The translations under genes were made by a program, and so were the position numbers. A stretch of DNA of 64,000 nt from Halichondria panicea (taxonomy: Eukaryota; Porifera; Demospongiae; Suberitida; Halichondriidae). This document shows, one piece after another, positions 144-53,728 of this stretch; position 1 is the first letter of the stretch; every line of letters starts with the position of its first letter. The notes beneath the pieces were generated by a model. The model was not told where the DNA came from, did not search any database, and worked only from the letters and a program-made list of their open reading frames with translations. Location: NCBI RefSeq assembly GCF_963675165.1, contig NC_087380.1:7001571-7065570 (forward strand), written 5' to 3'.

Positions 144-2458
144 CTCCTCCAGTGACTCTCCCTCTTTGTTCTTTAAAGAGAGTGGTGGGGATTGGTATCT
201 GCCATTTCTGAGAAGACCAAGAGAGATATCCAATGTACCGATAAACCTGTAGACACATAAAAATTGTAGTCTAGACTCATACTACATACTACCAGAAATA
301 TCAAAAAATCTCACTTCAATCTAGCTCACTTGTTGCCTCTCTTTTGTCGGTACACGTCAAGCTTGAGTGATTGAGTACCGCTGGTCTGCAAGGGTTCCTT
401 CAGTGGGAACACTAACTCCTGTATTTAAAGAGAACAGTGACAATATCAAATGCAGTACGTAATCTGTTTGACTACAGTAAACCTAAACATGTACACACAT
501 TATAGTCACACGTAGTACTACGCTATTAAATGCCATTACATCAGTTTTGAGGTTATAAGCTATAGACAATATTCATACATAATTCACACAACTGCTCACC
601 TCATCCCAGTTCACAGCATGGCCCACTAGCGGTATCTCTGTTCTCACTCGGGATGGTCTCACTGTGGTCGTCTGTCTCTCTTTCCCTATATGGAAACACA
701 AGCATTAGCAGGCCATTTTAATTGTTCAACTAAAATGTCGGCCTGGGAAGAGGCAATTTCATCTTAATCTCAGAGATTTGTGATTGTCATACCATAAATA
801 GCCCCCCATGGATCGACTATATGCGGCAGAAATACATAACTCCCCCAGTACAGGAAACAGCCCACCTATACCCTAACTAACCCGGTGTCATAAAATGTTA
901 GGCCCCCCCGGGCCTAGAATTTTAATATTCTAGGCCCCCTCTTAAAAGTTTAGGCCCCCCATTAACAGCGCAAAATTATTAGCATTGAATGTGTATTCTC
1001 AAAAGTACAACAACATAAAACCAGCTATAATAAAGTATTTACAGTCTATGCAGTGCCAGTTGCTGAATGAAGCTCTCCTCACACGCACACATTCATGCAA
1101 CTGGTCGACCGGCTGGTCACAGCCATCACAGCACCATTCCATGAATCAGGTCTCATGCAGCACGAAGCACATAGAATTGGTCAGCCAGATTACAAAGGAA
1201 ACTGCTATATATTCACCTCATAATTATATCCCGGTTGCTGCTTCTGAGCAGCTGGGTTACTCCAAAAAGCTTATCAAGCCTGGACTACTAGAATCTTCAA
1301 ACAATGAGCTTTACACGGCAAGAGAAACTAGCTGATCAGTCTAACAAATGGGCAGGGCTCACTTGCTTGTGCACTTATTACATGCATGTACTGTGATTCC
1401 ACCATGCATAGATAAAAGAGTTTCTTCTCTCTATGATTCCATATTGAGAGCTGAGATAGTGATGCTATATATACTCCACAACAATTTACATCGATCTAGG
1501 AAAACATATGGAAGAAGATATGAATTGTTGTCTTTGCACTGAAAATCGTATGCTTTATAATTATGAATTCAAACTTCGCCTTCTTTGGCAGCCAGCCGTT
1601 CGGGGGATATAGCGCTATCATGTTTTGTCCTACTGGGAAAGTTGGAATGGCAAAGCTAGCACGAAGTTGCAAATAATTTTATGGCGATAGCTATGCACAA
1701 CATCGATTATCTTACAGACAGATCCAACATTGCAGAGCTGCATCAACGCATTTAACTCTTATAATTATATATAGGTATAAGCATGAGTAACTTGAAGGTA
1801 AATCTTCCTTCACTTTGAATTCCGTGATAGCTAACATTTTTGCTAGTACTTTTATACAGAGTCTTGGCATGTATGTCTCTTTGATGCTTTGTCAACTAAT
1901 AGAGCTAACCTTTACCATAATATTATATCTCTTTGACTTTGTTCTATCGTGCAGAAAAGGATAGCAGGGGGCCTAATCTCACAGTTGGGGGCCTAGAATT
2001 TTAACAGAATGGACCCCCTGGGGGGCCTAATCTGTTAACATTCTAGGCCCGGGGGGGGGCCCAAAATATTAAAATTCTAGGCCCTGGGGGGGTGTAAACA
2101 TGGGGGGCCCAACATTTTATGACACCGGCCCTGCCACGGGGGGACAGTGTACAGAAAACAGCCCACCCACCCTTACTAACCGGCCATGGCAGCTTGAGTC
2201 AGTGGAGGGGGGGCTGCCTACAGCAGGGAATTCTGCCATAGATAGTTCGAGGGACTCATTATTTTATGGGGGACCTTCAGTATAATATGGCATGGCAGGA
2301 ACACTGGATTGGATTCATCATTACTAGATTTAGATCTATACCTCTAGCTATAGTTAATTGTAGATACCTTCAAAGGAAACAACCACATAGAAACGGTCAA
2401 GGGGACTTCTTTCCCAACCAATGTCTGCACTTATTTCTTTTACTCTCAGAGCCATCAT
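144..2458 (-). CDS. C2-death-domain-GTPase family gene 1, 5' part only (runs off left edge)
   Basis: Four coding exons on the minus strand are visible: 2368-2458 (start, Met-Met-Ala-Leu-Arg-Val), 600-685, 330-418 and 144-246. All have GT donors and AG acceptors, and the phases 1, 0, 2, 0 match genes 2 and 3 exactly. Together they encode most of a C2-like beta sandwich: a first strand beginning MALRVKEIS, the LDRFYVVVSFEG strand, the VNWDEELVFPL segment that C2 domains carry as NPxWNE, and a FIGTLDISLGLL strand. The usual aspartate cluster of calcium-binding C2 domains is not evident, so calcium-independent binding is more likely (inference). Exon 5 should lie just left of base 1, because the sister gene carries it about 30 bp beyond the matching point. 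The first intron is interrupted by a 1.24 kb transposon (886-2124). The rest of the protein (death domains, GTPase, Ig) is expected from the sister genes but not seen. Confidence 0.72.
886..2124. mobile_element. Non-autonomous DNA transposon, copy 1, with terminal inverted repeats
   Basis: The ends are inverted repeats beginning TGTCATAAAATGTTAGGCCC on the left, with one mismatch over about 23 bp to the right end. Both ends are flanked by CCGG (882-885 and 2125-2128). The subterminal parts are built from repeated GGGGGCCTA / TAGGCCCCC blocks. The interior (about 1 kb) has no convincing protein gene; the open frame at 985-1335 is not conserved as protein in copy 2 (29208-30255). The element lies in the first intron of gene 1. 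The matching site in gene 3 (near 36050) is empty and has a single CCGG, which supports CCGG as the duplicated target. The superfamily is unresolved. Confidence 0.8.
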
Positions 2459-2800
2459 CTTGTCCAGAAGTAGGGCTGTGGGCTAGGGTTGGGCGTAACT
2501 TGTCAACTATACTGTATGGCCTCTGCTTGTCCTCATTGCATATTGAGCACCACTGGCTGCTGTAATGTTGGGTCTGAGTGAGTTCACATAGCCTGAGCAA
2601 ATAGCCATTGCTGTGTGCAACTGGTAATTGTCTTACCTTACACATCAACTAGCAAGAACTACTGAAAATCTACATCAGATATCCTCTTCCATCGCTAGAT
2701 CTACTAGAATAAAAACTATAAATAATACTATAAATGTAAAATGTCCTACTGCATGTGATCACTAAGGAATTACATTTAATTATACAGACTCCTACTCGGG

Positions 2801-5360: not shown

Positions 5361-8300
5361 TTAGGGGTGTTTATTCTCTATCTTATAAATTAGGTCTTCC
5401 CTCTCCATACTGGGGGCTCTCAAAGCCTCCACCATGACCGACCAGCTCGGAGATCCCTTCCTGAACCACGCTTCCAGCATTGCAACAAAACACTTCTCCG
5501 TGTTATTGTAGTTAGTCTCTCTGATGCTCTGCATAAAGAACGAGGTATAGAAGATTAGGGTTGATACTAATATAGAGTGATTAGCTAATTAATGATACTG
5601 CATGTAGGTTACAGAACACCCCCCCCCCCGATATCACAGTCGATAATAAAATTAATACAGTTGAACGATCGTTGTGAGACACTCGTATACTCTGCACATT
5701 AAAAACAAATCAAGTAAATAAATGAGATAACGCAGTTAGTAGCTCATGCAGTATAGATACATACAGTGCATCCAGCTTAGAGATTACCCACTATAACAAT
5801 TTGCTGTTGTTCTATTAATCACCACAGACCCACCACCTTATGTTTCCATGGAAACATTTTTGAGTATGTTGTAGCTTGGTCATTCACCTACACCAATATT
5901 GGTATCAACACCATTTCTTAGAAATGTTCCAATCGAAAGATATTTACATTTAAGTACAGCTACTCACAAATTTGTGGTAATCTACTCTCTAAGCTGTATG
6001 CACTGTAGCATGCATGAAGTCTCCCCATTGTACTATACTGATATACACACTTTTATGAGTGAACTTTCCCCTGCAAATGGACGACTTTGTGCTCATGCAA
6101 TAATAGATCTACATAAGTCAATTTGGGCAACACTTACATCAATAGTTCCATTGTCCACACCCAAGTTAGAGGCCAGGAAATCCCACTTTGCACGAGCATC
6201 CCAAGTAGCATCTTTGACAGTCTTGAGAGTTATGTCACCACCTGTAGCTGTGGCCTCACCTGGACAAAGGGAGAACGTGGTGGTTTGGTAATGAAAAACA
6301 AGTAGCAAGAACATGTATATACTTTTGTCGAAACAGACGTGCATGGCTATATAATTATAGGTATGACGTACGTATCTGAGGTAAATTAAATACATTGTTT
6401 CTAGAAAAATAATTATTTTTTACTGGTTCTATAATTAGAACGATAACGTTTTTGTATCCTTTCTAAGAATTTTTTACGAGCCACGTCAATATATTGCATT
6501 ACATCATACCATACCTTTAGAATCATGACAGCCATAATCAATAATATATCTACTTACTGATATATCTCAAGCAGTGGTGCACTTTGAAGCAGAGCTGCTT
6601 GTTCTTGGATACTTCACAAGTGTAGAACCCATCGCAATGATCCCTCGTCACTTTGTCCACAGTGAGCACTGATTTATCTCCAACCATCTTGCTATTCTTG
6701 GTCCACTTAAAGGAGCTTGTGACACCAGGATTAGTAAAGGGCAGGGCATCAAGAGCAGCTTCCTCATTCAACTTAACTTCCTGGGAAATGATCTGATTCA
6801 ACACATTGAACATATAACCCACATGACATAAAAGACATTCTTTCATGCTCAGTATACATTTGCTAATACATAATACCAAGGGCTGAAGAGAAGAGGTGAT
6901 TCACAACACATTGAACATGTATACCGTATAGCAGGTAATTTTCGTGGGGTAAAAAATTTGTTATTTTCGTGGGCAAGCTGACCTCCACGAAATGTTAATG
7001 TAGGCGTGGCTTACCGGAACGTATGAATGCAGTGCAGCCACGAGACTAAACGAAATTTTTACTCACGAAACCACCGTTTTCCAGATAAACGAAATTTTTA
7101 CTCCACGAAAATTACCAGCTATACGGTATAACCCACATGACATAAAAGGCAATCTTCTCATGCTCTGTATACATTTGCTAATACATAATACCAAGGGGGG
7201 CTGAAGAGAAGAGGTACGTCCTTGATAATACTAAGCTAAAAATAATGTTCGTATCGTAATTGTATCATACCTTTCCAAACCAACATTCCTGATGTGGTGG
7301 CAGAGAAACACGATCACCCCCACACTGAAAGAAAGGACTGTGACCCTCCATCAACTGGCACAAACTCATTTCTTCAGCGTTTTGATGCTTTGGGCACTGA
7401 CAATCGAATGCAATAATCGGCTCGATCTTCTTGCTAATTCCGCTCATCACATACAGGACGGTAGTCAGCACATAGGAGCAGAGATCATGCATGTCACAAT
7501 CATATTTTCTGGTGATTCGAATCTCGTAACAGTCGGCGTGGGCTACCAGCGTGATGTGGTGTTCGGCACTATTGACATTGAAAGAAACTAGATTTCTCTT
7601 GACACGAGATTCTCGCATATTCCATTTCAGCCCCAAAATTATTTTTTGTCCCTCGGAAACCAACTTGCTGATCATGGCACAGAAGACACCAATGGGCACA
7701 TAGCCAGACTCGAAGGTGATCTTGATTGGAGAGGGTGTGTTGGAGTCGATGGCAGGAGCATTTGAAAGCTCTTCTTTTGAGGCACACTCGAGGATAGCTG
7801 GCATGAAGTAGACTGGCTGGGGACCTTTACCAACTATGGGTGCAAGGAGACTGACATGCTCAAGCAACTTCACAAGCTTGTCGACCGGGATCAAATCACC
7901 TTCCTTCACTTTTGCCTTGTTCAAACTAGAACAGCAGCGTTTAATCGTAGCAATCGAGAATTCCCCCAGTTCTTGCCACCTCTTGATCTCGGCAGCAGTG
8001 AAACGACACTTCCTATCAGTCGAGTGTAGAGATAGAAGAGATTCGACAATCAGGAGACTGATGCTGTTGAAGACAACATTGGGGCTGCAGATGACACGGT
8101 TTTTGAAGTAAGACTCCTTGTCCTCGATATCAGGGTAATAGAGAAGGGCCCCCACACACTGGTGCAAATACCAAATGGTGAACTTCACCTCCTCTTCATC
8201 CATCTGCAATGCTTTGCCAATCTGAATACACTCTTCCATCGTCGCAATTTCAAATTCTTTTCTCAGAATAACCCCAAAAAGGAGCTGTACAGGGCGAATC

Positions 8301-11300
8301 CGGAGATTGGCATCTTCAAAAAAAGTGTCAAATACTGTTTGAAGGTGTTCACGAATCGGATCAATGTCAGCATCTGTGCCATTGAAGTTGTCCACAGAGA
8401 AGAAGTGACTGTCATCTGGGTGGCTGATGACATCACCAAAATGTGAAGTAATGGTGGATAAGGCTTCGTGCTTCTCTTGGAGTTTTTCCTGCAAACGCTT
8501 TTCAGTTTCGGCTTGAATGGTAGAATCTGTGCTCAACTGATCAACTGCACTTGCTAGCTTGGAGAGGGTTTCGTTACATTGCTTCATCTGGAGCAGAAGT
8601 TGAATATTGGTTGTGAATCTGTTTTTGATTTCAGGAGGTAGAGCTTTCTCGAGAACTTCCACTTTGCTTTGCAATTCGGTATCCTCTTGTGGTGTGGGTG
8701 GTTTCTGTTGTTTTTCAGTGGTAGCCTTCGCCTTTGCTTTTTGCTCCACATGTTCCACTAGGTTTTTTGAAAATGAATCCAATTCTAGCTGCTTGCCAAC
8801 CTCTGCCTCTAATTCGGAAAATATCTCCTCCACCTTCTGCTCAGATTCAACTTCTTGCTGCACCTCCAGAATCAGCTGTATTGCGGCTCCCAGGGTGCTT
8901 TCGTCAAGACCCGGGTAATTCCCCTTGAGTTTTGCCTGAACGACTTCTGTCTTGGCTTGAATTTCTAACTTGTCTTGGTAAGTGCCCACTAGACTCACGA
9001 CAGCCTGAAGATTTCGGAAATGTTCAACTTTATCGGCAATCTCGGAATCAAGATCCGAATCAACTGTGACGTCATGGCTGATGGCTGAAAGAATTTGGGA
9101 GAGGGTCTCTCGAATCGTATACTTTGCTTGGTAGGGGGTGATTTTGTCTTGGTCACGTTCGTAAGAAACTTCATAAAGCTCGTCGAGATCTTTATCGAGA
9201 GGGAAGAAAGCGAGAAACATCCCCGGGCCCTTGCTCAAAAATGGAAGCATCTCTAAAAAGGCAGGCTGTCCACCTATGTCGATGATGTTGAGCAAAGCTT
9301 TGCCCAACAACTGTTCCATGTAATTGCCTCGCTTGACAATATTTCGAAGGTTTTCAATGATCTTGTGGACCTTGGTTTCTGGAGCCTTTGGTTTGGCTGG
9401 CTTGCTTGCTTCTTCCTGGGGAACTTGCTTTGTACTTGCCTCTGTGGGCTGAGCTTCGTTTGTGTCAACATTGGTTTCTAGAGTCTGTGATTTGGGTTGT
9501 TTGCTTCCATGCTTTTTGCTTGAATCCACTTTATCTGTGGGATGAATATCTTCTTTTAGCTTTAAATCATCAATGGGATCATTTGTTGGATCAGCAGATT
9601 CGACTGCTTTGGAAATGGCAGCATTTAGAACTTGCTGAAGGCCAATCAAGTAAGCGAAAATCAGTTGTGTTTCATTGTCAATATCTGTGGAGGCTTTGAG
9701 AATCAATTTGGAGTCACTTGACACAGCCAGGACTTGATTACACTCGGCAAGAAGAGTGCTACAGCGTTCTCTGTCTTGTGGTGGGATTGATGCCAGGTTA
9801 AGTATATGACCTAGCAGACGTTTTCGGAAAGTTGTTTTGCCGAGCCCTGAAAGGCCGATTAGGTACAGTTTAAGGTAGCGAAGGTTGATGGTGTTCTTCT
9901 TATCTGTCAGCAACTCGTTCAGCTTGTGTTCGTATTTCAACTGCTCTTCAACAGAGGCTGAAAGTGAAAGGTATACATATTATAAGTTTACAAGTGATTT
10001 ATTAATGAAAGCACCGCGGGTGCTGATGCCTCGGTGGAGGCGCCAAAGCTTTATGGTAATGAAGCTACAGTAGTATAGTTAAATAATAGCGGATAATTTC
10101 AGGGGGGGAGGGGGCAAAATATTTGTGGTTAAGCAATATTTAGTCACTTCATGGATAATACTTTTGTGTTTGCTGTTTGCACTGCAGGTAAAGGTAGGCA
10201 AGGTCGCTTCATAAAATATTTGTGGTCAGAGGTTAAACCACGAAAACCATAAATATTTTGCGCCATGAAAATTGCCTGCTATACAGTACACACATGTACA
10301 GTTCATTACATGCAGGGAAGAGCAAAAAAAGAGTGGAAATCATGTTGAAAAGGATGCCGAAAGTTCAAAGTCCATAATTATTAATGAAAACCTAAAATTA
10401 ATGGAAACAGTGTGACTTTGTAGCTCTTTTCTCATTCTTGCAGCTACCAATAGCTATAGCGTTTTAGTGCAGACCTATAACTACTAAGTAGAATAGGCAA
10501 CATATTTTGCTACGCAAGAGTGTGAATAGTTTCCAACAGCCTTCAAAGTAGCCATAACTCGAGAACGCAGCTTTATTTTGCATTGTAATCCAAGAACCTA
10601 ACTACTAAGTAGAATAGGCAACATATTTTGCTACGCAAGAGTGTGAATAGTTTCCAACAGCCTTCAAAGTAGCCATAACTCGAGAACGCAGCTTTATTTT
10701 GCATTGTAATCCAAGAAATCGTGACTAGAGAAGCCTCAGAGGAGGTACGACATAGGTTGACCTTTTTGCTAATGAGTTACTCCCGTATTGCATTCCTGCA
10801 GCATGACAGGATGTAACACCCTATAAGAGGTGTGGCCTCGCGTCATAATTTATCATCAAGTTTCACGGAGGAATTGTGAGTGTACGGAGAAAGAAGAGAA
10901 TATACGGAAGCACAACACCAAAAATTGCTTTCCTAGCTAGCTAAAAGACTACAAACGATCATAGTACTCCACAGAAGTTATAAATAATGCCTAGCTATAC
11001 ATAAGAAAATGAATAGCATACTCATAGTTGAAGAAATGAGCTATGAACTTACAGTGTAAGAGTTTGTTGCGCTTTCTATGGCTCCTGTCTTAATGTAACA
11101 CTTATAGTAGATACTAAGATTGATAAACTAGTAGAAAATGCCTCTTGGAGAGACTCCAGAAGAGATAAACACAAAGAAAAGTAAAATAGCGCTGACGGTG
11201 CATAAAATACCTGCCTGAGTCAACAATATCATGTGGGCGTGACATCCTGTCATGCTGCAGGAATGCAATATGGGAGTAACTCGTTAGCAAAAGGTCAACC

Positions 11301-14300
11301 TATGTCGTACCTCCTCTGGAGAAGCCTGTATTAAGGTATATACATGTATGTTCGCAGTACATGCTTAGTCAGCGAAAAACAATAAAGTGTATACCCTTGA
11401 AATATACCCGCTATACGGTATGTGATCAACTAGGTAAGTACTGAGTGATCAGAGGTCTCTCCAAAAATTGCATGCATCTTATAGGGCAGCCAAACCTCGA
11501 CAAGTCATAACACTCTATGAGTGTACCAGTTTTACTACCACATTAAACATTACCACTATAATTATAGTCACTGCCATTAGTCACGCTACTCACCTGCTGT
11601 GTCCTTGCTTTCCTGCACTGAGGAGTCATCATTCTTGATGTACTTGTCCTCAATCTCATCAGCAATGTCAGGACGGTTAAAACTTGGTGACCTCAGGGCT
11701 TTAACCAGCTCAGACCAGGTGGGGTTGGGTGAGGACTGGAGCCATTTTCCAAGCATTGCAGTGAAGCAATCTTCTGAGGCACGGTGGTCCTTATCAATAG
11801 CCTGTATAGAGTGAACATTAACGTTAACATGTTAAGCGGTTGGAAGTTTTAAAAAAATTAATGAAGGAAATCTTTAAATATGCGACGCTTGGACATTTCA
11901 TCTTTATACTTTAGCACCATTATTATTGTTTTGTACATAATTATATAGTCATTCTAGCTGGAAAATTACACGGTCACCTTATTTACAATTTACACGGTAC
12001 AGAGAGTCTTACAACACCGGTATCTGAATACCGGTGTTGTAAGACTCTCTGTACTGTGTAAATTGTAAATAAAGTGACTAATTGTTCATGAAACCATAGA
12101 GAGTGCTAGGAAACTGCATGCCCTTCAATCACCTGTAGTGTTCTGTGTGGTAGACCCAGCGCAAGCCCCAGGTTGAACCAATTAACACGAACGTCCCACA
12201 AGACAGCTCTCGCTTCTCCTAGTGTGAGGGACCCTGCATAGAAACACATGACAACCATTGACATCCACATTTATACAGTAGGTAACCGATCGAACCATGA
12301 CACAATACAATGTACATTACATGTATATAATGAAAGCACCGCGGGTGCTGGTGCCTCGGTGGAGGTGTCAAAGCTACATAACATAAAGCTACTAGTTATT
12401 AGCAATAGTTTTATACTGACACACATTATAATTATGAACAATTTTGCAATTTTGCTGCATGCATTAATTGTAAGGCAGAATCCAGAATCACAGAGAAACT
12501 CAAAGAGTGGGTAATGATCGACCATAATTGTTGTTAAAAAGGATAGATGCCAAAAATCCAAGTTTAAAATGGCTGCATTAGCAGAGTCTTGCCAGCTCTG
12601 GCTGAGTTCTCACTCTTGCAGCTACCAATAGCTAGCGTTCTAGTGCAGGGTAAGAGTGAAAATAGCTGCAAACTGCACTTAGCTGTTTCATGCAGCCATT
12701 AATTTTATGGACTTCGAACTTTTGGTATCGATCAACGATCATGGTCAGTCATTTCCCATTTTTTGCTTTATGTTTGGTGCCACCACCGAGGCATCAGCAC
12801 CCGTGGTGCTTTCTAGTGTTGTAAAATTCCTATAGCCTGACGCATCGCCGACTTAGGCTTAGCTACAGAATGATGTCACTTCTGAGTATCCAGCCTCAAG
12901 GTTTGAGATTGGATACCGCAGCGGGCTTAAATCACACCATGGAATTAAGGTATAATCCACCAATCGATGCATCATGTAGTGTAGAACTTACTATTAAGAG
13001 GTTGAACTCGACCCTGTTGCGGCTGCTCTCTTTCTGCAGAAAACAATGCATGATTAATAAAACTTTACACATAATAACGTATATCGTATAGCGGGGAAGT
13101 TTTGTTTGGTGTACATTTTTGTATAAACTGCCCAATTTCGTATTTTAAGTATTCGTACAGCTCAGGATAGTGACGTTGAACGTATCGTGGTAGAATAATT
13201 AATTTTCGTATGATGCTCTATCAGTGGTGTGCCTAACGAGGGGCTTTGGAGGCTTGAGCACCCCCTGGCCTTCCTGACAACCATGAGAGTAATCTAGCTA
13301 TCAGTAATGGTCTAGCTAACTGAGCAGTTGTCTCGAATTCTCTTATGCAAATGAAAGTACAGTAGAACCTCGCTAATCCGGACCCCTTTAGTCCGAAACC
13401 TCGCAAATCCGGACAAAATGGAAAACTGAAAAGAGGAGGGGCTGTCAGTAGAATAGACTTCTGCGCATGCGCAATCTAGCTTATGAGTGTACCAGTTTTA
13501 CTACCGCATTAAACATTACCACTATAATTATAGTCACTGCCATTAGTCACGCTACTCACCTGCTGTGTCCTTGCTTTCCTGCACTGAGGAGTCATCACTC
13601 TTGATGTACTTGTCCTCAATCTCAGCAGCAATGTCAGGATGGTTAACTAGCGGTGACCTCAGGGCTTCAACCAGCTCAAACCAGGTGGAGTGGGGTGAGG
13701 ACTGGAGCCATTCTCTAAGCATTGTAGTGAAGTAATCTTCCCTGGCATTGTCCCTCCCAATAGCCTGTATAGAGTGAAATTCATGTTAATTAAGTAACAA
13801 TAATTTTTCGTTGATAGTTCAAAAAAATTAATTTAGGCAATCCTCTAATTATGTGACGCTCAGACATATTTCCTTTAGCATCATTATTATTGTTTTTACG
13901 TACATAATTATAGTCATAGTCAAGCTGGAAATTAGTCACGATCACCTTATATACAATTTACGCGGTACATGCAGGGATTATAAAAACACTGGTATCTGAA
14001 TATTCTAACACATGTATTATGTTTATACTGGTATCAGAGTTTATATCGTGTAAAATGCATGGTGACCGTGACTAATTGTTCATGAAACCATAGAGTGCTA
14101 GGAAACTGCATGCCCTTCAATCACATGTAATGTTCCTAGTGGTAGACCCAACACACGCCCCAGCCAGTACCATTCAGCACGAACACCCAACAAGGCAGCT
14201 CTCGCCTCTCCTAGTGTGAGGGACCCTGGAAACACATGACAAGCAATGACATCCACACAACATTAATTGATTGAGATTGAACTATGACACAATACAATAT

Positions 14301-19051: not shown

Positions 19052-19053
19052 TA

Positions 19054-20804
19054 AGTTAGAAAAAATTTGCATATTCAAGCTTTGAAGTGGCTACTGCTAA
19101 TGAGGTGTCTATCCAACTAAGAAACCTGCTAGCAGGGCTCTAACTAGTACCCACAAAAATGCATTTTCTAAGTGAGATAGACCATGTGCCTCGGTCAATT
19201 AGTGACTTGCCTCAGCCACTACACTCCCTCAGGTTTACTATCCAGCTGGTCTAACTAATACTTAAGCAATGTGGTATGATAATTTATGTATAATAATTAT
19301 GTTTGCTATTATTATTATGATGCACATTTTTGTCCATGGCTTGCAATATCACAAGAGCTGAGCTCCTCCTAAGCTATGTAGAAAGTGTAAACTTTCCCTC
19401 CTTAACATCGTATCAGGTGACCACGTGGGGGCTCATACAAGCGACTATGTCTGTGGGATGTGGTTGAGGAGATGCTATACTGACTACTTTTTCTGGTCAC
19501 TATAGGGAAGCGTTAGTATGTGGCTTATGATTGTTTTGAACATGTATTTATTTATTATCCCCATTGAGAAATACAATTACACATTAATTAGATTGTGTTC
19601 CACCATTCCAATTATTCACTCACTCTATCCTACAGGTGGTGACATGTTTTGTGATGCCACCTGTTTCTATGGCGAGTGATCACGATGAAGAGTGGGCAGT
19701 GGCCGTGTCAGGAAAAGAGAATAATGTTTGTGTACTGTAGAACCTCATGCTTATTAACTTGAGTTTGGATTAGTTCCTAGACCTATAATTATAGAGAGCT
19801 CTCTATCCCATGCATCCTTTTGAGGGAGAACTGGGTGTGTCAACAGCTCAACAGCTAACTTTGGATACCCTTACTTTGCGTACTTGCAAATATTTGTCAG
19901 AATTCACATGCACCTCTATTCACACAGAGCATCTGAAAGCTTAATGAATTCTGAAGATGTACAGACAAGCACAATCATCCACTTCCCCTAAGAATCACAC
20001 CCGGAGCCTCCCATCACTCAAAGCCTATGGAATCCTAAAATCGAACTCAATACACTGTAAAGGCCTCCCTCCACCACACATAATGGTGGGAATCAATGTG
20101 CTAAGGATCTTTGTTGCCCCTCTCCATCACAAGTCACAAAGTCAACCGTACCCCCACAATGACCCCTACAACTAATTCCGAAGTAACCCCCAAACAAGAA
20201 GACTGAGAAAAAAAAACATCGCTACCCCTAAACCAGCAAAAAAATCCTTCTAAAACCATTGTGAAATACCTTCCCCACGTGCACCTCAGCAGACTCTGCC
20301 CACTATGTCTCTGCCGTCCGTAGTCGTAAGAGGAAGCTTATACAGCCAACCAGAGCACAAAGAAAGCGAGAAAGATAAAGAGCTACTCAACCACCAGCTG
20401 ATCTGTTTGCCAAGAGAACTACACTACCTTGCAATTGTAGCAAATGTATGCCTTCTGCTTATAAGTTAATTATTTCAAACCACAATAGAACACTTAATAT
20501 AATTGTTGTTCAAACTGTTTGTTTCATCTTTGAAAATCTAATTGAGATGGAACATGATCAATACTGAGGTACTCTACAATGTTATACAAGCGCATAAATT
20601 ACAATAGCTGCAAAAATTGAGGACATAAAATTGATCTGTATTAAATATTAACAGAAGAGACAAACAATACAAAGTCACTGTAGAGTTCACAGACTTGACA
20701 GCGCCTGTGCATGGAGGCAATAAAGAATGAGTAGGTGGTTATAATCAGTAAGCTAAGACTGCATGGTGGGTGTGGGACATGAAATTGCTTAGTTACCAGT
20801 TACC
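19054..20804. other. Intergenic stretch with no assigned gene
   Basis: It lies between phosphatase remnant 2 and the long inverted repeat. A short plus-strand run at about 20270-20367 could encode a basic RKRKLIQPTRAQRKRER-like tail, which may be a decayed transposon coding end, but no start or domain is visible. A CTGTAGAACCTCAT fragment at 19735 resembles the pogo-like end at 13361. Confidence 0.4.
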
Positions 20805-21124
20805 AAGAGTATATGATAGAGAAGAGAGTATCGAACGTAGGCATACTGTACATCAGATGTATGCGGAGAGTAACGTGACTTCCCGTATCTGTCACAAGCT
20901 TGGAATTTGCACACTGACCAATCCAAGTGTGGGTGATGTAATCTATCAAGAAAGTAGATTACATCACCCACACTTGGATCGGTTGATAGATTACATCACC
21001 CACGCTTGGATTGGTCAGTGTGCAAATTCCAAGCCCATGACAGATACAGGAAGTCACGTTACTCTCCGCATACATCTGATGTACAGTATGCCTACGTTCG
21101 ATACTCTCTCTATATCATACTCTT
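20805..21124. repeat. 320 bp long inverted repeat with an internal tandem unit
   Basis: The left arm begins AAGAGTATATGATAGAG and the right arm mirrors it to 21124. I estimate above 95% identity over about 145 bp per arm. The centre carries three copies, in mixed orientation, of a unit with AGATTACATCACCCAC. Transcription would give a long double-stranded hairpin. It lies downstream of gene 3. Confidence 0.9.
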
Positions 21125-21137
21125 GCTGTTAGCCATT

Positions 21138-24200: not shown

Positions 24201-27200
24201 AGTAGACTGGCTGGGGACCTTTACCAACTATGGGTGCAAGGAGACTGACATGCTCAAGCAACTTCACAAGCTTGTCGACCGGGATCAATTCACCTTCCCT
24301 CACTTTTGCCTTGTTTGACTTGGAACAGCAGCGTTTAATCGTAGCAATCGAGAATTGCCCCAGTTCTTGCCACTTCTTGATCTCGGCGGCAGTGAATTGA
24401 GACGTCCAATCACATGAGTGTAGAGATAGAAGAGATTCGACAATCAGGAGACTGATGCTGTTGAAGACAACATTGGGGCTGCAGATAACACGGTTTTTGA
24501 AGTAAGACTCCTTGTCCTCGATGCCAGGGTAGTAGAGAAGGGCCCCCACACACTGGTGCAAATACCAAATGGTGAACTTCACCTCTTCTTCATCCATCTC
24601 CAATGCTTTGCCAATCTGAATACACTCTTCCATCGTCGCAATTTCAAACTCTTTTCTCAGAATAACCCCAAAAAGGAGCTGTACAGGGCGAATCCGGAGA
24701 TTGGCATCTTCGAAAAACGAGTCAAACACTGTTTGAAGGTGTTCGCGAATCGGATCAATGTCAGCATCTGTGCCATTGAAGTTGTCCACAGAGAAGAAGT
24801 GATTATCATCTGGGTGGTTGATGACGTAACCAAAATTTGAGGTAATGGTGGATAAGGCTTCGTGCTTCTCTTGGAGTTTTGCCTGCAAACGCTTTTCAGT
24901 TTCAGCTTGAATGGTAGAATCTGTGCTCAACTGTTGAACAACTGCACTTGCTAGCTTGGAGAGGGTTTCGTTATATTGCTTCATCTGGAGCAAAAGTTGA
25001 ATAGCTTTGGGTGTGCTCTGTTTCAATCTGTGTTTGATTTCAAGAGGTAGAGTTCTCTCAAGAACTTCCAATTTCCTTTGCAATTCGGTATCCTCTTGTG
25101 GTGTGGTTGGTTTCTGCTGTTTTTCAGTGGTAGCCTTCGCTTTTGGTTTTTGCTCCACATGTTCCACAAGGTCTTTTGAAAAGGAATCCAATTCTAGCTG
25201 CTTGCCAACCTCTGCCTCTAATTCGAAAAAGATCTCCTCCACCTTCTGCTCAGATTCGACTTCTTGCTGCACCTCCAGAATCAGCTGTATTGTGGCTACC
25301 AGAGTGTTTTCGTCAAGACCCGGGTAATCCCCCTTGAGCTTTGCCTGAACAACTTCTGCCTTGGCTTGAATTTCCAACTTGTCTTGGTAAGTGCCCACTA
25401 GACTCACGACAGCTTGAAGATCTCGGAAATGTTCAACTTTATCAGCAATCTCGGAATCAAGATCTGAATCAACCGTGACGTGATGGCTGATGGCTGAAAG
25501 AATTTGAGAGAGAGTTTCTCGAATCGTATACTTTGCTTGGTAGGGGGTGATTTTGTTTTGGTCACGTTCGTAGGAAACTTCGTAGAGCTCGTCAAGATCT
25601 TTGTCGAGAGGGAAGAAGGCGAGAAACATCCCTGGGCCTTTGCTCAAAAATGGAAGCATCTCCATGAAGCCGGGCTGTCCACCTATGTCGATGATGTTGA
25701 GCAAAACTTTGCCCACCAACTGTTCCATGTAATTGCCGCGCTTGACAATATCTCGAAGGTTTTCAATAATCTTGTCGACCTTGGTTTCTGGAGTTTTTGG
25801 TTTGGCTGGCTGGCTTGATCCTTCCTGGGGAACTTGATTTGTTTCAGAATCTTCTTTTGTCTCAATGGGATCATAATTAGTTGAATCAGCAGACTCGACT
25901 ATTTTGGAAATGGCAGTATTTAGAACTTGCTGAAAGCCAATCAAGTAAGCAAAAATCAGTTGTGCTTCCTTGTCAATATCTGTGGAGGCTTTGAGAATCA
26001 ATTTGGAGTCACTTGACACAGCCAGGACTTGATTACACTCGGCAAGAAGAGTGCTGCAGCGTTTTCTGTCTTGTGGTGGGATTGATGCCAGGTTAAGTAC
26101 GTGACCCAGCAGACGTTTTCGGAAGGTTGTTTTACCAAGCCCTGAAAGTCCGATTAGGTACAGTTTGAGATAGCGGAGGTTGATGGTGTTCTTTTTATCT
26201 CTCAGTAACTCGTTCAGCTTGTGTACGTACTTCAACTGATCTTGAACAGAGGCTGAAAGTGAAAGGTACATATTATAGGTTTACAAGTAAGTGATTTACT
26301 AACCACCTAGCAGAGTCTCCAAGTATAAACTTTTTTTCAGTAAGATAAGTTTTTCCGTAATGATTTTCAGTATAATTATAAGCTCTATACTACGTAAAAG
26401 GAGTACAAAAACATGGAAATGAGATGAAATGCTGTTTAGATAATAAATAGTCTCCAAGACTAGACTTTATAGCGTGTGCATGTCAGATGTTGGAACTTGA
26501 TAGAATAATAAAAATTATAGTAGAACAACTACTGTATACTGGCAGCTAGTGTTTTATAAGGTGTACATGCACTTGTTATATATAGACAGCTATTTTTTAT
26601 TTATAGTTTGTGCTATATATAAGCTCCTATAGAACTGCAACTTAGTCAGTCTCATTATTCATTCTTTTTGTAGACTACAAACTATGCTGATACTGACTGA
26701 AACCTGAAACAGCATAGGGCATATAGAGTTACCGACGCTTCACTGTCCATTTCTCAAAACTAAAGCCAGTTTATATTTTGTAAGCTGACAAAAGCTCCTA
26801 TAGAACTGCAACTTAGTCAGTCTCATTATTCATTCTTTTTGTAGACTACAAACTGTGCTGATACTGACTGAAACCTTACTTTGCTAATCTAGCTGTATCT
26901 CTGATACTTTGCAACATCATGCAACAGCATAGGGCATATAGAGTTACCGACGCTTCACTGTCCATTTCAAAACTAAAGCCAGTTTATATTTTGTAAGCTG
27001 ACAAAAGCTCCTATAGAACTGCAACTTAGTCAGTCTCATTATTCTTTGTAGACTACAAACTGTGCTGATACTGACTGAAACCTTACTTTGCTAATCCAAC
27101 ATCTAGCTGTATCTCTGATACTTTGCAACATCATGCAACAGCATAGGGCATATAGAGTTACCGATGCTTCACTGTCCATTTCTCAAAACTAAAGCCAGTT

Positions 27201-30200: not shown

Positions 30201-33200
30201 TTAAATTCTAGGCCCGGGGGGGCCTAAACATGGGGGGGCCCAAAATTTTATGACACCGGGTGATTATGTATTTCAGAGGTATCTCCAAAATTGCATGCAT
30301 CTTATTGGGCAGCCAAACCTCGACAAGTCATAACACTCTATGAGTGTACCAGTTTTACAACCACATTAAACATTACCACTATAATTATAGTCACTGCCAT
30401 TAGTCACGCTACTCACCTGCTGTGTCCTTGCTTTCCTGCACTGAGGAGTCATCACTCTTGATGTACTTGACCTCAATCTCAGCAGCAATGTCAGGACGGT
30501 TAATGTCTGGTGACCTCAGGGCTTCCACCAGATCAGACCAGGTGGGGTTGGGTGAGGACTTGAGCCATTCTCCAAGCATCGTAGCGAACCGATCTCCTGG
30601 AGTATGGTGGTCCTTCTGAATATCCTGCATAGAGTGAAAATTCATTTAACATGTTAAGTAACATAATTGTGTACAACATTTCCAGTTGGTTCGTTTGTCT
30701 TTTGAGTAAGGCGACCTTCTAATTATGCGACGCTTGGACATTTCACCCTTATACTCTAGCACCGTAATATAGTCGTAGACTATAGCTGGCAAAAAATATT
30801 TGTTAGTCGTAATCACCTTATTTACACGGTGCATAATTATTAGCCTTGTTTCCAGGCCGATTTGTCTCTACGTAGGTCGACAACTATAGGCATCCAATAG
30901 CATACATAGACAAGACAAGAGTATTGATTTTCGTTGTGATATAAACTTTTTATCTTATGTTTTAAAATTCAGTTTCCAGTCACACCCATCGAATTCCAAC
31001 TACGCCCAGATACAATCAATACCATGCAGGCCTAGTTGTCGACCTAGCGTTATTTTAGAGACAACGAGGCTGGGAACGAGGCTACATAATTATTAGAATC
31101 TTCAGTTATTTTATTGGTGATTTCATAGTACTTACGATAATTATTATCATTTAACTTCTACAGTTTGAACAGTACTCTATACTGAGATTACGCCCACGTC
31201 CGAAATTACGCTCACCCCCCACTTGTGAGTAATTTGTCTCGAGAATACACCCATGTACCAGGAAGTGATGCATTTGTCAGTGAGCAGTTGACAAAAGGTT
31301 TAGCAGTTTATTGTGTAAGCTGGTTAGCTCTGACATAATTATAGCCGGCTAGATACATGTATATATATATGCTTGATCAGAGGCCGCTCTCAAATAGTAG
31401 CCTCTTTTGCCAGCATTTAGTAGCCGCTCTCAAAAAGTAGCCTCAGTAAACTTGACTCTAGCATTTCTGCACGTGGAAGCCATATTATACTAGCAGCTAG
31501 CCGTATACATGTAGCTATAGGTAGGAGCTTGTTAGTGCTTCACAAAGACTTTATCATGGCAGAGTTTATGCAGGTGAAAATAACTTTTAATGACAAAGTA
31601 AAGATTGTTGAATTAGCTGGCGCTCTCGAATTGTAGCCTCCTCTGCCATAAATTTAGTAACCGCGGCTTCTGATCGAGCATATACGGTGCTCCTATTTTG
31701 CAAGTATAAAAGACAAGGACAATGTTTTTGAATCTCTGTTGTAGACTCTGACAGTGACAAGGAACAACCTAACTTCTTTATACCTAGCTACTTTACCCAT
31801 GCATTACTATGCATTGTTATATATTGATGTATTCATTGTATATTTGTATATTTCAAGAGCTGGCAAGCCTCACACTAGACGCAGACAGAAAATACAAATG
31901 AGTGGGAGTAATTGCGAGCAAAGCTACTGTTTTTAAAATTAGGCCCATCCCACCTGTAGCTGCCTTGTAGCATGCAATTAGGGTGGGCGCAATCTCGGTA
32001 TAGAATACGATATACAATTATGCAGTCATAAAGAGTTATAGGAAACTGTATGCCTTTCAATCACCTTTACTGTTTTGGGTGGTAGACCTAACACAAGCCC
32101 CAGGGTGTAGTACCATTCACCACGAACATCCAACAAGGCAGTTCTCACCTCTCCTAGTGTGAGGGACCCTGGAAACACATGTAAGTAGAGCACAATGTTA
32201 AAAGGTGTGGTTGGCTATAGCCATGCACATCTAAACATGCATGCATTGCAGTGGCGTAGGAAGGGGGGGCTCCAGGGGCTGGAGCCCCCCCCCATCTTTC
32301 TAGGCTAGAGATGACATATAGATAGTCGTACTTTTTACCATTCAAAACACTAGAGCCCCCCTCATTGAGAAATTGCTTCCTATATACGCCACTGCATTGT
32401 AGGCATGCTGGTATACATGTACCAGCATGTATGTAATAAATCCGGGCTCTGCAGATCATGCTAAATGCTGCTGGCATATTCCTTTCATTGCTTGACTATC
32501 TATTGGCCCTATTTGACTGATCTATTCACAATGGAAATACTTATGTTGATAAATTTAGGATGTCTGACAACCTATAAACCTTGCCTTTCCCTCCAAGAAC
32601 GTATAATACACAGTCTGCTTGGCCCCACGAGAGACATGGAATATAATCACTCACCTGCTGTGTCCTTTCTTTCCTGCATTGAGGAGTCATCACCCTTGAT
32701 GTACTTGACCTCAATCTCAGCAGCAATGTCAGGACGATTAATGATTGCTGACCTCCTCAGGGCTGCAACCAACTCAGACCAGGTGGAGTTGTGTGAGGAC
32801 TTGAGCCATTCTCTAAGCATTGCAGTTAAGCGACCTTCTGAGGTACGGAGATCCTTTTCAATAGCCTGTAGAATGGAAAATTTATCATGAACAATAATTT
32901 TGTACAACTTATCCAGTTGGCAAAAATGCGATTGTCTTTAAGATATTTCATTTTTATGCTTTAGCACCATTATTATTGCAGCTAGACTATGACTATATTT
33001 ATTGTAAAAAAACTATAGCCGTAGAGAGTCTTACAACACAGGTATCTAGAGCACTTTATTGGTGAATTCACAGTGTAAGAAATGTACATCATAATTTTAC
33101 ATATACAACCATAGAAGACAGTGCTAGGAAAATGCATGCCCTTCAATCACCTCTAGTGTTTCCATTGGTAGACCCAACTCAAACCCCATACTCTTCCATC

Positions 33201-36200
33201 TAGCACGAGCACTCCACAAGGCAGATCTTGCCTCTCCTAGTGTGAGAGACCCTGGAAACACGTGTATACAGAACAATTTTAAAATGGAATAAAGGTTAGC
33301 GATAATCTAAACATTGGAGGCGTGCTGCATGGTATATATACCACGACATAGGCATCATCTCTGCAGATCCTGCAAGCTAAATGCTGGTTTTCCTTTTATA
33401 GCTTGACTGGAACTATTTGACTACCATAGAAACTGGATTATTAGCGCATGCGCTTTTAGGGTCAATATAGCAGAGCTCTATATATACACTTATATTCGAG
33501 AATGCGCCTATAATGCAGTCATTTCGAGCCCCACCCAGCAACCGGATGTCTCTGTGATGAGAGCTGACTCGCAAGCTGGCTAGAAAGTGAGCAAGCAAGG
33601 CAAGCAGGCAACCCTAACTGGATCTATATCATAATAACAGTTCATCAAAAACATTCATATTGACCAGGAACTTGGAATAAAAGGACCTCATCCATGTCTC
33701 ACATTCTCTCAGCATGATCAGACAAGGTAGCCCAGAGAGTCCTTACAGACGGATATCACCAGCTATATAGCTATCATGGCACTGTACAAGCTAACTAGCT
33801 CATAGATAGACAATGAATCAATTCTACTAATAACCTTAAGTTTGCATAATTGGAAAAGCGCTTCAATTCGAGTATAAAAAGCCTGCAGTTGAGCATGCGC
33901 TTTAAAATAAAGATACGCTTATAGTCGAGTAAGCGCTAATAATCCAGTTTCTACGGTATTGTGAGCGTCCAGGGTGGGCCACGCCCAACTATGATAATAC
34001 ACAGTCCGATTAGCTCCACAGGAGAATAGTATATCACTCACCTGCTGTGTCCTTGCTTTCCTGCACTGAGGAGTCATCACTCTTGATGTACATGACCTCA
34101 ATCTCATCAGCAATGAAAGGGCGGTTAACTAGTGGTAACCTCAGGGCTCCAACCAGATCAGACCAGGTGGGGTTAGGCGAGGACTGTAGCCATTCTCCAA
34201 GCATTGTAATAAAGCGATTATTTGAGGTATGGTGGTCTTTCATAGCCTGTAAAATGGGACATAAAGTTTCCTGTCGTCTTCAGCTACAGGATTACAACAA
34301 TGCATGGCATCAAAACAACTGCACACAATTTTGCATTGTAGAATCATATTTATTATATCACAGTAGTATATATAGTATACTCGACACCATCAAGTTATGT
34401 TTAAGGTTGGAGGGGTCCTTGAGAAGCACATATTCTGGGTAAATTGAAGCATATGTGCACTATAGCTATCACTCATGCAATAGGTACCAGGCCGTATTTT
34501 AATTGGCCTGGAATTGAGGCTAGCACATCCCAGCATGCAGTCAATCTCTATGGCTTCATGCACTATTGGAAATAATTATGATCTTGATTGTCGTTGCTGC
34601 GTTCAAGTGGGAAACCTTACAGCTCATTGCCACTTCGAAAATTCTGGGCAAATCACTGATTTGAGGGTATTGGGAAACTGCATGCCCTTTAATCACCTCT
34701 AGTGTTTCCATTGGTAGTCCCAACGCAAGCCCTAGGTTGTACCATTCAGCACGAGCACCCCACATGGCAGTTCTCACCTCTCTTAGTGTGAGGGACCCTG
34801 GAAACACATGACAAGCAATGACATACACATCACATGTAAACATGCCACAATAATACAATGTGTATAATTATTATGTCTGCTCAGAAGAAAGTTTTTGATA
34901 GCAAAAAAGAAATATTGCCTATTGTATAATAATAGTGGGACAACTCCACACTATGACATAATTATTGTAACACTGGCCATGCTCAGTAAATATAGCGCTT
35001 GTTTTACTTGCATGCAGTCTGTGCATGTGTATACAGTACCATCATGTATCTCCTTGGAAGGACTGCTAGTGGGATCATACTCCACTGTCACACTGACTGT
35101 AGACTGGAGGGGGGTAATACATGAGTGCTTGAGGTCATGTGACTACAACAGAATTGCATTAACATATACGTATGTTATCAGCGGGTGATGATGAGGGAAC
35201 AGCTGCTCAGGAGTATAAGAGTATATATATGCTATTATCGGCACGGCCAGCTCCAAATTGTATACCAATACCATTATGCAAACAAAATAAATGAATCACC
35301 TGCAGTGACTCCCCCTCTTTGTTCTTTAAAGAGAGTGGTGGGGATTGGTATCTGCCATTTGCGAGAAGACCAAGTGGGATATCCAATGTACCAACAAACC
35401 TGTATAAACATAACGTATAGTTAAACTCATAATATGTACTATAGGTCAAGCAATATGAAACATTTTCGTTTCGTTTAATCTCTCACTTTTTTCTCATTGT
35501 AATGTTATTTCGGTACAAGTCAAGCTTGAGGGATTGGGTACCGCTGGTCTGCAAGGGTTCCTTCAGTGGAAACACTAACTCCTGCATTTAAAGAGCAGAG
35601 TGAAAATATGAAATGCAGTATACGTAATCTGTTTGACCACAGTAAACCTAAACATGTACACATATTATAGTCGCATGTAGTACTACGCTATTAAATGCCA
35701 TTACATCAGTTTTGCAGTTATAAACTGACAAAGACAATTTCCTGAATCCACACAATTGCTCATGCACCTCATTCCAGTCCACAGTACACATCGGTAGGCC
35801 CCGGCTCCAATGTATCAGTCTCTCTGTGGTTGTCCGTCTCTCCTTTCCTACTTGGAAGCATCAAGTCAATGCAAGCATTATAGCGAGCCTTTACTAAAAG
35901 CAATATATCGGCATGGGAAGAGGCAATTTTACTCAATCCAACAGACTACTCGGTGGGTAATTGGATTGTCACACCGCAAATGATCCCCCTGGACCATAAT
36001 TATGTGGCAGAAATAAACTTTAATGGTTCCCCCAGTACAGAAAACAGTCCACCTAACCCGGCCCTGGTGAATAGTCCATGGCAACTTGATGGTCAGTGGG
36101 AGGGGGGCTGCCTCAGTACATACGGCAGGGCATTCTGACATAGACAGTTCGAGGGACTCATTTATGGGGGACCAGTTAGACTATATCAGTATATGGCATG

Positions 36201-36369
36201 ACAGGATCGCTGGCTTCCATTATCTACTGTGCTTCTGATTCAATGCTAGATTTATATAGCTATAAGTCTGGTAGTTTGTACCTTCAAAGGAAACAACCAC
36301 ATAGAGACGGTCAAGGGGACCTCCTTCCCAGCCAAATTTTGCACTTATTTCTTTTATTTTCAGAGCCAT
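21298..36369 (-). CDS. C2 - 3x death domain - Roc-like GTPase/COR - Ig - 2x death domain protein (gene 3)
   Basis: Sixteen exons: 36282-36369 (start), 35768-35847, 35487-35581, 35300-35399, 35040-35142 (C2-like); 34697-34797 + 34042-34246, 33151-33251 + 32655-32865, 32065-32168 + 30417-30624 (three death domains); 23674-26252 (GTPase); 23254-23479 (Ig-like); 22947-23068 + 22334-22541 (death domain); 21349-21689 (second C-terminal death-like domain). The exons total 4872 nt, an intact frame. If the last exon reads on without splicing, a stop falls at 21298 inside a MITE end, giving about 1640 residues; alternatively a lost or undetected exon follows, because a GTGAGT donor ends 21349. The P-loop, DIGGQ and GTYQDK match gene 2. 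The GTPase exon is 36 codons shorter than in gene 2, from deletion of a low-complexity stretch before VPQEGSS. Introns carry several transposons and a satellite. Function is unknown; cytosolic signalling is inferred. Confidence 0.8.
22636..22873. mobile_element. CCGTATAGC-family MITE, diverged
   Basis: It has ends TACCGTATAGTGAG and CACGCTATACGGTA and lies in the intron splitting the C-terminal death domain of gene 3. Confidence 0.75.
26306..27355. mobile_element. Inverted-repeat element enclosing a three-unit satellite
   Basis: The left end CTAGCAGAGTCTCCAAGTAT and the right end TACTTGGAGGCTCTGATCTAG are imperfect inverses. Inside are three head-to-tail units of roughly 170-215 bp starting AAGCTCCTATAGAACTGC at about 26620, 26792 and 27005. 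It occupies the large intron upstream of the gene 3 GTPase exon; gene 2 lacks it. Confidence 0.7.
27999..28178. mobile_element. CCGTATAGC-family MITE with a decayed right end
   Basis: The left end is TACCGTATAGCGGGTAATTT. The right side has TTACCCCACAAAAATTAC, but the final GCTATACGG is lost. It lies in the gene 3 intron. Confidence 0.7.
28180..28766. repeat. Diverged inverted repeat with about 95 bp arms
   Basis: The arm at about 28180-28275 (with GCAGAACTGCTCGTG) is mirrored at about 28672-28766 (CACGAGCAGTTCTGC). The arms differ at perhaps a quarter of positions. It is an old foldback element in the gene 3 intron. Confidence 0.6.
29208..30255. mobile_element. Non-autonomous DNA transposon, copy 2 of the CCGG-flanked family
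   Basis: The ends TGTCATAAAATATTAGGCC and GGCCCAAAATTTTATGACA are flanked by CCGG at 29204-29207 and 30256-30259. The interior aligns with copy 1 (886-2124), including ATTAACAGCGCAA and the GGCCTA-rich subterminal blocks. It lies in a gene 3 intron. The matching gene 2 intron near 11430 is empty and reads AAGTACTGAGTGATC. Confidence 0.85.
30841..31084. mobile_element. MITE with AGCC(T/C)CGTT-type ends
   Basis: The left end contains TTGTTTCCAGGCCGA...GGTCGACAACTATAGG; the right end mirrors it as CCTAGTTGTCGACC...GGCTGGGAACGAGGCT. The length is about 244 bp, in the gene 3 intron. The small hairpin at 62133-62183 has related ends. Confidence 0.7.
31367..31684. mobile_element. MITE with ATATGCTTGATCAG ends
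   Basis: Left ATATGCTTGATCAGAGGCC and right GGCTTCTGATCGAGCATAT are inverses with few mismatches. The inside repeats CCGCTCTCAAA(T/A)AGTAGCCTC. It lies in the gene 3 intron. Confidence 0.75.
32249..32394. mobile_element. 146 bp CAGTGGCGTA MITE with CATTG flanks
   Basis: The inverted ends CAGTGGCGTAGGAAG and CTTCCTATATACGCCACTG are flanked by CATTG on both sides (32244-32248, 32395-32399). It lies in a gene 3 intron. Confidence 0.75.
33423..33958. mobile_element. 536 bp element with TAGAAACTGGATTATTAGCGC ends
   Basis: The left end reads ACCATAGAAACTGGATTATT and the right end is its inverse with one or two changes. A diverged left part recurs at about 21786-21960. It lies in the intron between death-domain modules 1 and 2 of gene 3. 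Confidence 0.8.

Positions 36370-53682: not shown

Positions 53683-53728
<46 letters not shown>

Follow-up and report, generated by a model that had tools for sequence, protein, structure and literature searches.

A tandem array of predicted Roco GTPases with C2, Ig-like and variable death domains in the sponge Halichondria panicea

A stretch of 64,000 nucleotides from the sponge Halichondria panicea (contig NC_087380.1; C4:7001571-7065570), here called the window and numbered from its first letter, contains three genes of one family, two of them complete and the third represented by its start, arranged as a tandem array on the minus strand. The family would encode large, probably cytosolic Roco proteins, in which a C2 domain is followed by zero to three death domains, a Roc GTPase, a COR domain, an immunoglobulin (Ig)-like domain and one or two C-terminal death domains. 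The genome that was searched for relatives comprises 131 megabases in 39 contigs.

Gene 3, the first of the three in the direction of transcription, extends from 36369 to 21349 on the minus strand. Its 16 exons encode 1611 residues up to the last donor-like site, to which about 16 residues would be added if exon 16 reads through to its own stop. An in-frame TGA lies 9 bases upstream of the ATG. Exons 1-5 (35040..36369; individually 36369-36282, 35847-35768, 35581-35487, 35399-35300 and 35103-35040), which are joined by GT-AG introns with closed phase, encode the C2 domain. Three N-terminal death domain cassettes follow, each identified by the exon chain and by Pfam Death; the first (34042..34797) consists of two exons and runs from phase 1 to phase 1, and the second and third lie at 32655..33251 and 30417..32168. 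One large exon (23674..26252) holds the Roc GTPase, a helical insert, COR and a Cys/His tail, as read from the paralog alignment and from the predicted fold of a paralog, L020. The Ig-like exon (23254..23479) scores 22.3 bits alone and 19.4 bits in context with the Ig model PF00047 (cut-off 21.8), and matches Ig_3 below its cut-off (2.5e-5). A C-terminal death domain in two exons (22334..23068; exon chain and Pfam Death) precedes a last death domain in a single exon of uncertain end (21349..21689), which alone scores 20.7 bits with Death (cut-off 22.6).

Gene 2 (minus strand, 17160 to 5361) has 13 exons that encode 1422 residues plus a stop. It is built in the same order: C2 in exons 1-5 (15568..17160), two N-terminal death domain cassettes (13560..14225 and 11594..12233), the Roc-COR exon (7271..9957, entered in the paralog alignment as L010), an Ig-like exon (6558..6780) that stays under the cut-offs of the Pfam Ig models, and a two-exon C-terminal death domain with the stop (5361..6259), the death domains again being read from the exon chain and Pfam Death. 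Gene 1, also on the minus strand, has only its four first C2 exons in the window (2458-2368, 685-600, 418-330 and 246-144); exons 5-9 were taken from the contig beyond it (C4:7001505-6994655). The complete chain of nine exons closes and encodes 1180 residues plus a stop, with no N-terminal death domain.

An earlier note, made from the letters of this stretch, had proposed just such an array of three genes. Genes 2 and 3 assemble as it claimed, and gene 1 closes beyond the window. Its exon counts of 13 and 16 held; the lengths were corrected, to 1422 residues rather than 1435 for gene 2 and to at least 1611 rather than about 1640 for gene 3. The closed phases that it reported for these two genes were found again, with every intron GT-AG and no internal stop. 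Since the exon borders were picked by hand from homology, phase closure was partly guided; the stop-free runs of 1180, 1422 and 1611 codons are independent of that choice.

For its C2, death and Ig parts, the order of domains given in the earlier note (C2, death, GTPase, Ig, death) is borne out by Pfam matches, with the Ig match borderline and the C2 match of gene 2 below the cut-off. With the C2 model (PF00168, cut-off 22), gene 3 scores 25.4 bits and passes, and gene 2 scores 14.8. With Death (cut-off 22.6), the N-terminal part scores 62.1 bits over three stretches in gene 3 and 43.6 bits over two in gene 2; the C-terminal part scores 54 bits over two stretches in gene 3 and 28.8 bits over one in gene 2. 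The only matches over cut-off in the N-terminal parts of the two genes are Death and, in gene 3, C2. Pfam shows no match to leucine-rich repeats (LRR), kinase, ankyrin (DAPK1 carries ankyrin repeats) or NACHT in those parts of genes 2 and 3 that were scanned. At what we take to be the usual site of the calcium-binding aspartates of a C2 domain, the three genes show LYRNN, LYCHR and VYRQKR, which hints at a calcium-independent C2. Because the predicted protein starts directly at the C2 domain, the Ig part is probably cytosolic.

A variable number of death domains had also been noted, and the N-terminal cassettes do range from none to three per gene: three in gene 3, L005 and L006, two in gene 2, L009 and L011, one in the copy at C4:6622880 and none in gene 1. 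When the flanks were read by eye, 14 of the 16 N-terminal cassettes had kept the usual splice sites; two of the three cassettes of L005 are without the usual end of exon b, the second exon of the cassette.

The central exon is, by paralog profiles and a modelled fold, a Roc-COR (Roco) tandem; what the earlier note had called "Roc-like" is thereby better described as a true Roco switch. Gene 3's GTPase exon had no match in a sequence search of the PDB. A profile of 20 paralogs gave only weak matches there, mainly to P-loop GTPases and including CtRoco and LRRK2, and a direct profile comparison with the COR exon of an LRRK-like gene of the same window was likewise weak (37.6% probability). The stronger connection runs within the family: the aligned set of 15 close and medium paralogs matches nine divergent single-exon paralogs, likewise aligned, over 713 columns with an E-value of 2e-108. 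All nine have COR-A at E 0.01 or better, and two of them also have Roc. The nine were picked as COR-A hits, so that their own COR-A match follows from the selection, and the informative part of the link is the family match to them. Three compact paralogs that align with the family, also picked as COR-A hits and near the COR-A cut-off, exceed the Roc cut-off of 27 (L034, 41.1 bits; L036, 38.6; L039, 40.3). Five other paralogs in the same scan for Roc and COR-A had no Roc match over cut-off, and two members of the branch with Ig exons, L020 and L019, had neither Roc nor COR-A.

The fold was modelled for L020, whose GTPase exon is 43% identical to that of gene 3 and also has an Ig exon directly downstream. 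AlphaFold, given 40 sequences, reached a predicted local distance difference test score (pLDDT) of 75 and a predicted template modelling score of 0.79. In a Foldseek search of the PDB with this model, all 23 chains with an E-value of 0.001 or less are Roco proteins, the best being 6hlu (1.3e-12). VIA-align gives a Z of 24.8 to LRRK2 (457 residues, 4.1 Å), 21.9 to the archaeal MbRoco2 (4wnr) and 20.4 to the bacterial CtRoco (3dpu); Rag and G-alpha chains reach Z of about 15 to 16.5 over the GTPase part only. The root-mean-square deviation in Foldseek is high, about 10 Å over 700 residues, as may be expected if the domains of the model are flexibly joined. The motifs that we take to be G1, G3 and G4 of the GTPase are well kept: GxxGxGKTT (G1) occurs in all 14 of the 15 aligned rows that cover it, and DIGGQ (G3) and GTxxD (G4) in all 15. 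Across an alignment of 40 rows, GGQ and TxxD are invariant, G1 being only partly covered there.

Two observations concern regions of this exon outside the GTPase motifs. At the end of COR, gene 3 has a Cys/His cluster (C822, C824, H827, C836 and C844, followed by W859; 23683-23796, minus strand) that is invariant in 15/15 aligned paralogs, the copy in gene 1, outside the alignment, being without the first Cys. It is a possible zinc site, and we know of no such site in other Roco proteins. In a divergent branch, seen in L014 (1-4770) and also in L013, L015, L017 and L019, the sequence inserted behind G4 is a minisatellite that codes for SDSTTASK/ADK-like repeats and in L014 extends over hundreds of residues; the length of such an insert may vary between individuals.

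A search of the genome at the protein level returned 97 matches, which were merged by hand to 51 GTPase copies. These stem from 52 scored among 371 candidates. Fifteen are close copies, 14 on the contig of the window and one on C14, with 83 to 89% identity in the main segment (gene 3 itself, 100%). The other 36, one of them likewise on the window's contig, have about 42 to 57% identity, depending on the segment. Every one of the 51 listed copies is followed on the same strand by an Ig exon at a distance of 50 to 1359 bases, a linkage that is more than chance; the rows entered into this comparison were all 71 for Ig and 13 of 38 for C2 (one per exon set, two for gene 3). The 12 sets of C2 exons are all on the window's contig, and each has a GTPase copy of the same strand 3.3 to 28.8 kilobases (kb) downstream of it; they precede 12 of the 14 close copies on this contig. 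Death-domain exons lie downstream of the Ig exon in six of eight divergent copies (in L016 the first half only, at the end of the sequence), and in the remaining two, L018 and L019, the sequence continues for only about 0.7 and 1.2 kb past the Ig exon.

Sixty additional COR-A hits, 35 of them under the Pfam cut-off, merge to 56 loci, none of which overlaps the 51 copies; the resulting 107 candidate Roc-COR loci include broken copies, and given also the hits under the cut-off and the scoring of 52 of 371 candidates, the true number may be higher or lower. Twenty Ig hits are without a listed GTPase. When the sequence upstream of 11 of these was read, eight had a family frame of more than 250 residues, some of them broken, one had a COR fragment only and two had nothing. 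Stops interrupt the GTPase exon in L009 and in the copy at C4:6968372, both of the close branch; elsewhere, L055, L057 and L060 are split between frames. Duplication has continued until recently: gene 2 and L011, some 76 kb apart, differ by a dS (synonymous divergence) of only 0.02, as judged from their sequences a recent duplication. L008 (C4:6919954) and L009 (C4:6982918), about 63 kb apart, have an unusual upstream frame in common and look like a second recent pair. On C10, three frames of 1269 residues (4289778-4292201, 4392395-4394818 and 4436983-4439409) each have two COR-A hits about 2 kb apart and perhaps encode double Roc-COR proteins.

Outside this genome, 14 stretches from viral contigs included no relative, and one of 86 stretches from genome contigs was a relative. 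This one, L067 (JAKSCP010000286.1), is on a contig from a bacterial metagenome bin, in which ATP synthase genes are joined to a Roco exon with about 33% identity to L024/L042. The contig is probably a chimera with DNA of a host animal, which suggests that relatives exist in another animal.

The earlier note had asked for the ratio of nonsynonymous to synonymous substitution (dN/dS) between genes 2 and 3. Constraint appears in the GTPase, and the N-terminal death domains give a ratio (omega) above 1 in the codon model. The GTPase exon has a dN/dS of 0.28 to 0.49 by counting (median 0.36; 55 pairs of 11 close copies), with a pooled value of 0.18 between G3 and G4. The codon model reads higher than counting, and its omega of 0.52 is significantly below 1 (log-likelihood, lnL, -9096.06 vs -9145.34). 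Purifying selection acts on the Roc-COR switch. For the Ig exon, counting over 11 copies yields 0.48 (0.29 to 0.80) and the codon model 0.59 (lnL -743.80 vs -746.28). Between genes 2 and 3, the ratio is 0.77 for C2, 0.68 for Ig and 0.38 for the death domain at the C-terminus, whereas N-terminal death domains, in three comparisons, reach 1.22 to 1.30.

The cassettes were then taken together, 15 of the 16 from seven genes, gene 1 contributing none; the middle cassette of L005 was dropped for its unusual exon b end, and the first cassette of L005, with the same defect, was kept. In the codon model, exon a of the N-terminal cassettes has an omega of 2.76 (lnL -755.46 vs -766.45 at omega 1). Twice the difference in lnL is 22.0, which corresponds to about 3e-6 by chi-square with one degree of freedom. 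Exons a and b jointly give 1.71 (lnL -2089.21 vs -2097.45). On a fixed tree, exon a comes out at 2.6 to 2.9 under the Goldman-Yang (GY) and Muse-Gaut (MG) models, exon b at 1.4, which is not significant, and the two combined at 1.7. The N-terminal death domains thus have an omega above 1 in the codon model, less clearly so by counting. Death domains are known as conserved adaptors, and diversifying selection on them would be unexpected.

Roco proteins have been reviewed as nucleotide-driven switches with a change of dimer state, and the available part of that review distinguishes three groups, LRR-Roc-COR, LRR-Roc-COR-kinase and DAPK1 (PMC6337361). By its sequence and modelled fold, the sponge family has the Roco hallmark of Roc followed by COR, yet it fits none of the three, because neither LRR nor the kinase of the DAPK1 group was found in what was scanned of genes 2 and 3. 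It shares with the DAPK1 group a Roc-COR tandem with a C-terminal death domain (54 and 28.8 bits here) and without LRR (PMC6337361). It differs in that DAPK1 has a kinase before Roc-COR (PMC6337361), of which the scanned pieces of genes 2 and 3 have no match, and in its C2, N-terminal death and Ig-like domains. With LRRK1/LRRK2, CtRoco and MbRoco2 it shares the Roc and COR fold, as seen through L020; in contrast to these, no LRR or kinase was found in the same pieces, a long helical or low-complexity insert separates G4 from COR, and death domains and Ig are present.

Large families of Roco proteins are known elsewhere. The brown algal ROCO genes, 9 to 47 per species and more than had been reported from other organisms to that date, form an expanded family of proposed immune receptors, in which the available text describes exon-level shuffling and diversifying selection on N-terminal interaction modules (PMC11378527), a likeness to the family described here. 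The diversifying exons in the algae encode LRR (PMC11378527), whereas in the sponge they form two-exon death-domain cassettes, among 107 candidate loci. In the early-branching placozoans and sea anemones, Roc-COR is likewise joined to CARD, death or TIR domains, and an oyster protein with TIR_2 and a GTPase has an additional C2 (PMC11378527, PMC5094078). Therefore, the combination of Roc-COR with death folds is not a new theme; the order C2, death domain, Roc-COR, Ig, death domain is not described in the available parts of these two papers. Among sponges, Amphimedon has an expanded set of proteins with one to three N-terminal Death-like domains, behind which lies a TRADD-N unit (PMC8195603) rather than Roc-COR. 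The nucleotide-binding, LRR-containing receptors (NLRs) of Dysidea avara, also expanded in sponges, share a nucleotide-binding protein with an N-terminal death domain and differ by having NACHT and LRR (PMC12909245), where the present family has a Ras-like GTPase and COR with no LRR found. An NLR combines an ATPase of the STAND (signal transduction ATPases with numerous domains) class with LRR; the centre of L020 is Roc-COR by fold, and genes 2 and 3, as far as they were scanned, have no NACHT or LRR match, which places the family outside the NLRs. A search of the literature, mainly of titles and the openings of abstracts, found no description of the order C2-death-Roc-COR-Ig-death, and such an absence is no proof of novelty.

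Taken together, the family is interpreted as a death-fold scaffold that is switched by GTP and serves cell death or immunity, a function suggested by its domains and modelled fold to which we give a probability of roughly 0.6. By analogy with other Roco proteins, the Roc-COR tandem would act as a nucleotide-driven switch, its GTP/GDP cycle coupled to a change between monomer and dimer. The C2 part may dock the protein on a membrane or a partner, and the death domains would offer surfaces that recruit other death-fold proteins. Once the switch is set, the clustered death domains could seed a death-fold assembly, and this assembly could lead to a caspase- or NF-kB-like output. Because the number of cassettes varies and their omega exceeds 1 in the codon model, the death-fold surface is suggested to be the part that diversifies between paralogs. 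Such diversification is expected of a repertoire in conflict with microbes, or of one that keeps parallel signalling channels apart; the codon-model result agrees with a role in conflict but does not prove it, and the role in immunity or cell death that the earlier note had proposed likewise stays an inference. A bolder version is rather doubtful: a class of intracellular receptor or hub built on Roco instead of a NACHT ATPase, in which selection alters both how many death-fold cassettes a paralog has and which residues lie on their surface, giving every paralog an "address" of its own, and in which switch and Ig stay constant.

Several points weigh against these interpretations. Gene starts, gene ends and the joining of exons are predicted from sequence, and gene 1 has no N-terminal death domain. 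The GTPase exons of the window score only 13.9 and 13.6 bits with Pfam Roc (cut-off 27) and have no COR-A match, so that their Roc-COR identity depends on the profiles and the fold of paralogs. The good fold model is that of L020, at 43% identity, and not that of a window exon; for the GTPase exon of the window itself, AlphaFold given 15 sequences produced a poor model (pLDDT 49), which was left out of the fold searches and in which the helical insert between G4 and COR has a pLDDT of mostly 67 to 86 with a dip at 361-390. A sensor domain, LRR or other, was not found among the scanned parts of genes 2 and 3. In the 8 kb upstream of two divergent copies there was no convincing C2 or death-domain exon, in a search that is weak for diverged short exons; for this reason, the C2 and death-domain part may be special to the branch on the window's contig. 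As for selection, the signal of exon a comes from 33 codons, and pooled counting over the cassettes gives ranges that include 1, both for exon a (1.68; codon bootstrap 0.94 to 3.09) and for exon b (1.03; 0.73 to 1.51). In the codon model, exon b has an omega of 1.38 that is not significant (lnL -1231.02 vs -1232.66), and the control, C-terminal exon a, has an omega of 1.37 that is neither significant nor below 1. Gene conversion between paralogs can mimic or bias an omega above 1, and may do so here. Finally, comparisons among the three cassettes of gene 3 yield dN/dS of 0.86, 0.66 and 1.00, and such low ratios speak against a death-fold "address".

The alternative that survives best, although unlikely, is a regulator of developmental or housekeeping cell death, or of the cytoskeleton, like DAPK1 or LRRK2 and with no immune role, the expansion reflecting dosage or partition between tissues. 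The closest known animal Roco proteins with a death domain are indeed those of the DAPK1 group (PMC6337361), and the switch is conserved; however, 51 listed GTPase-Ig copies, a pair as recent as gene 2 and L011, broken copies, and an omega above 1 in the N-terminal death domains are not what such a regulator would lead one to expect. Less probable again is that the variable death domains are surfaces for private pairing, which separate paralogous complexes or match self against non-self rather than sense microbes. Diversification does sit on the death domains and on their number, and not on a repeat-type sensor, and the flanking switch is constrained; but escape from microbial mimics of death domains would give the same pattern, and the cassettes of gene 3 reach only 0.66 to 1.00 among themselves. 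It is improbable that the array is mostly decaying, with only Roc-COR of importance and the N-terminal death domains drifting under relaxed constraint. Gene 1 without such domains, the broken copies in the close branch (L009, C4:6968372) and elsewhere (L055, L057, L060), the two L005 cassettes without the usual exon b end and the counting ratios near 1 would fit decay; relaxed constraint, however, should bring omega near 1 and not to the 2.6 to 2.9 of exon a, and the usual splice sites persist in 14 of 16 cassettes. That the exon chain is an artefact of reading, joining C2, death-domain and GTPase exons of separate neighbouring genes, is very improbable, for although the joining is predicted and the C2 exons of two copies are over 20 kb away on the upstream side, each of the 12 C2 exon sets precedes a GTPase copy of its own strand, the three chains are phase-closed and stop-free, and an Ig exon follows in every listed copy.

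The array has neighbours of other kinds. The LRRK-like Roco gene mentioned above adjoins it in the same orientation (41057-51479, minus strand), with Roc at 48055-48333, COR-A at 45817-46209 (62.7 bits), presumably LRR-like repeats, and what we take to be the start of a kinase-like domain near 44.6 kb. On the plus strand, 51781-62069 contains four tandem copies of a multi-pass membrane protein that, we presume, resembles amino acid transporters. Just downstream of gene 3, a foldback of 0.32 kb (20804-21125; a self inverted repeat of 88% identity) resembles a small mobile element.

If the reading of the family as a GTP-switched death-fold scaffold is true, Roco GTPases have become the basis for a large repertoire of death-fold switches in at least one animal lineage, in parallel to the NLRs. 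The 107 candidate loci, broken copies and hits below cut-off included, are more than twice the 47 that is the largest count in the available account of the brown algal survey (PMC11378527). The family is apparently undescribed, and what is unusual about it is that the switch is conserved while the death domains change fast. Roco proteins have been studied mostly for the role of LRRK2 in Parkinson's disease; with a family in which death domains are directly attached to Roc-COR, it would become possible to test whether Roco signalling in animals originated in cell death or immunity.

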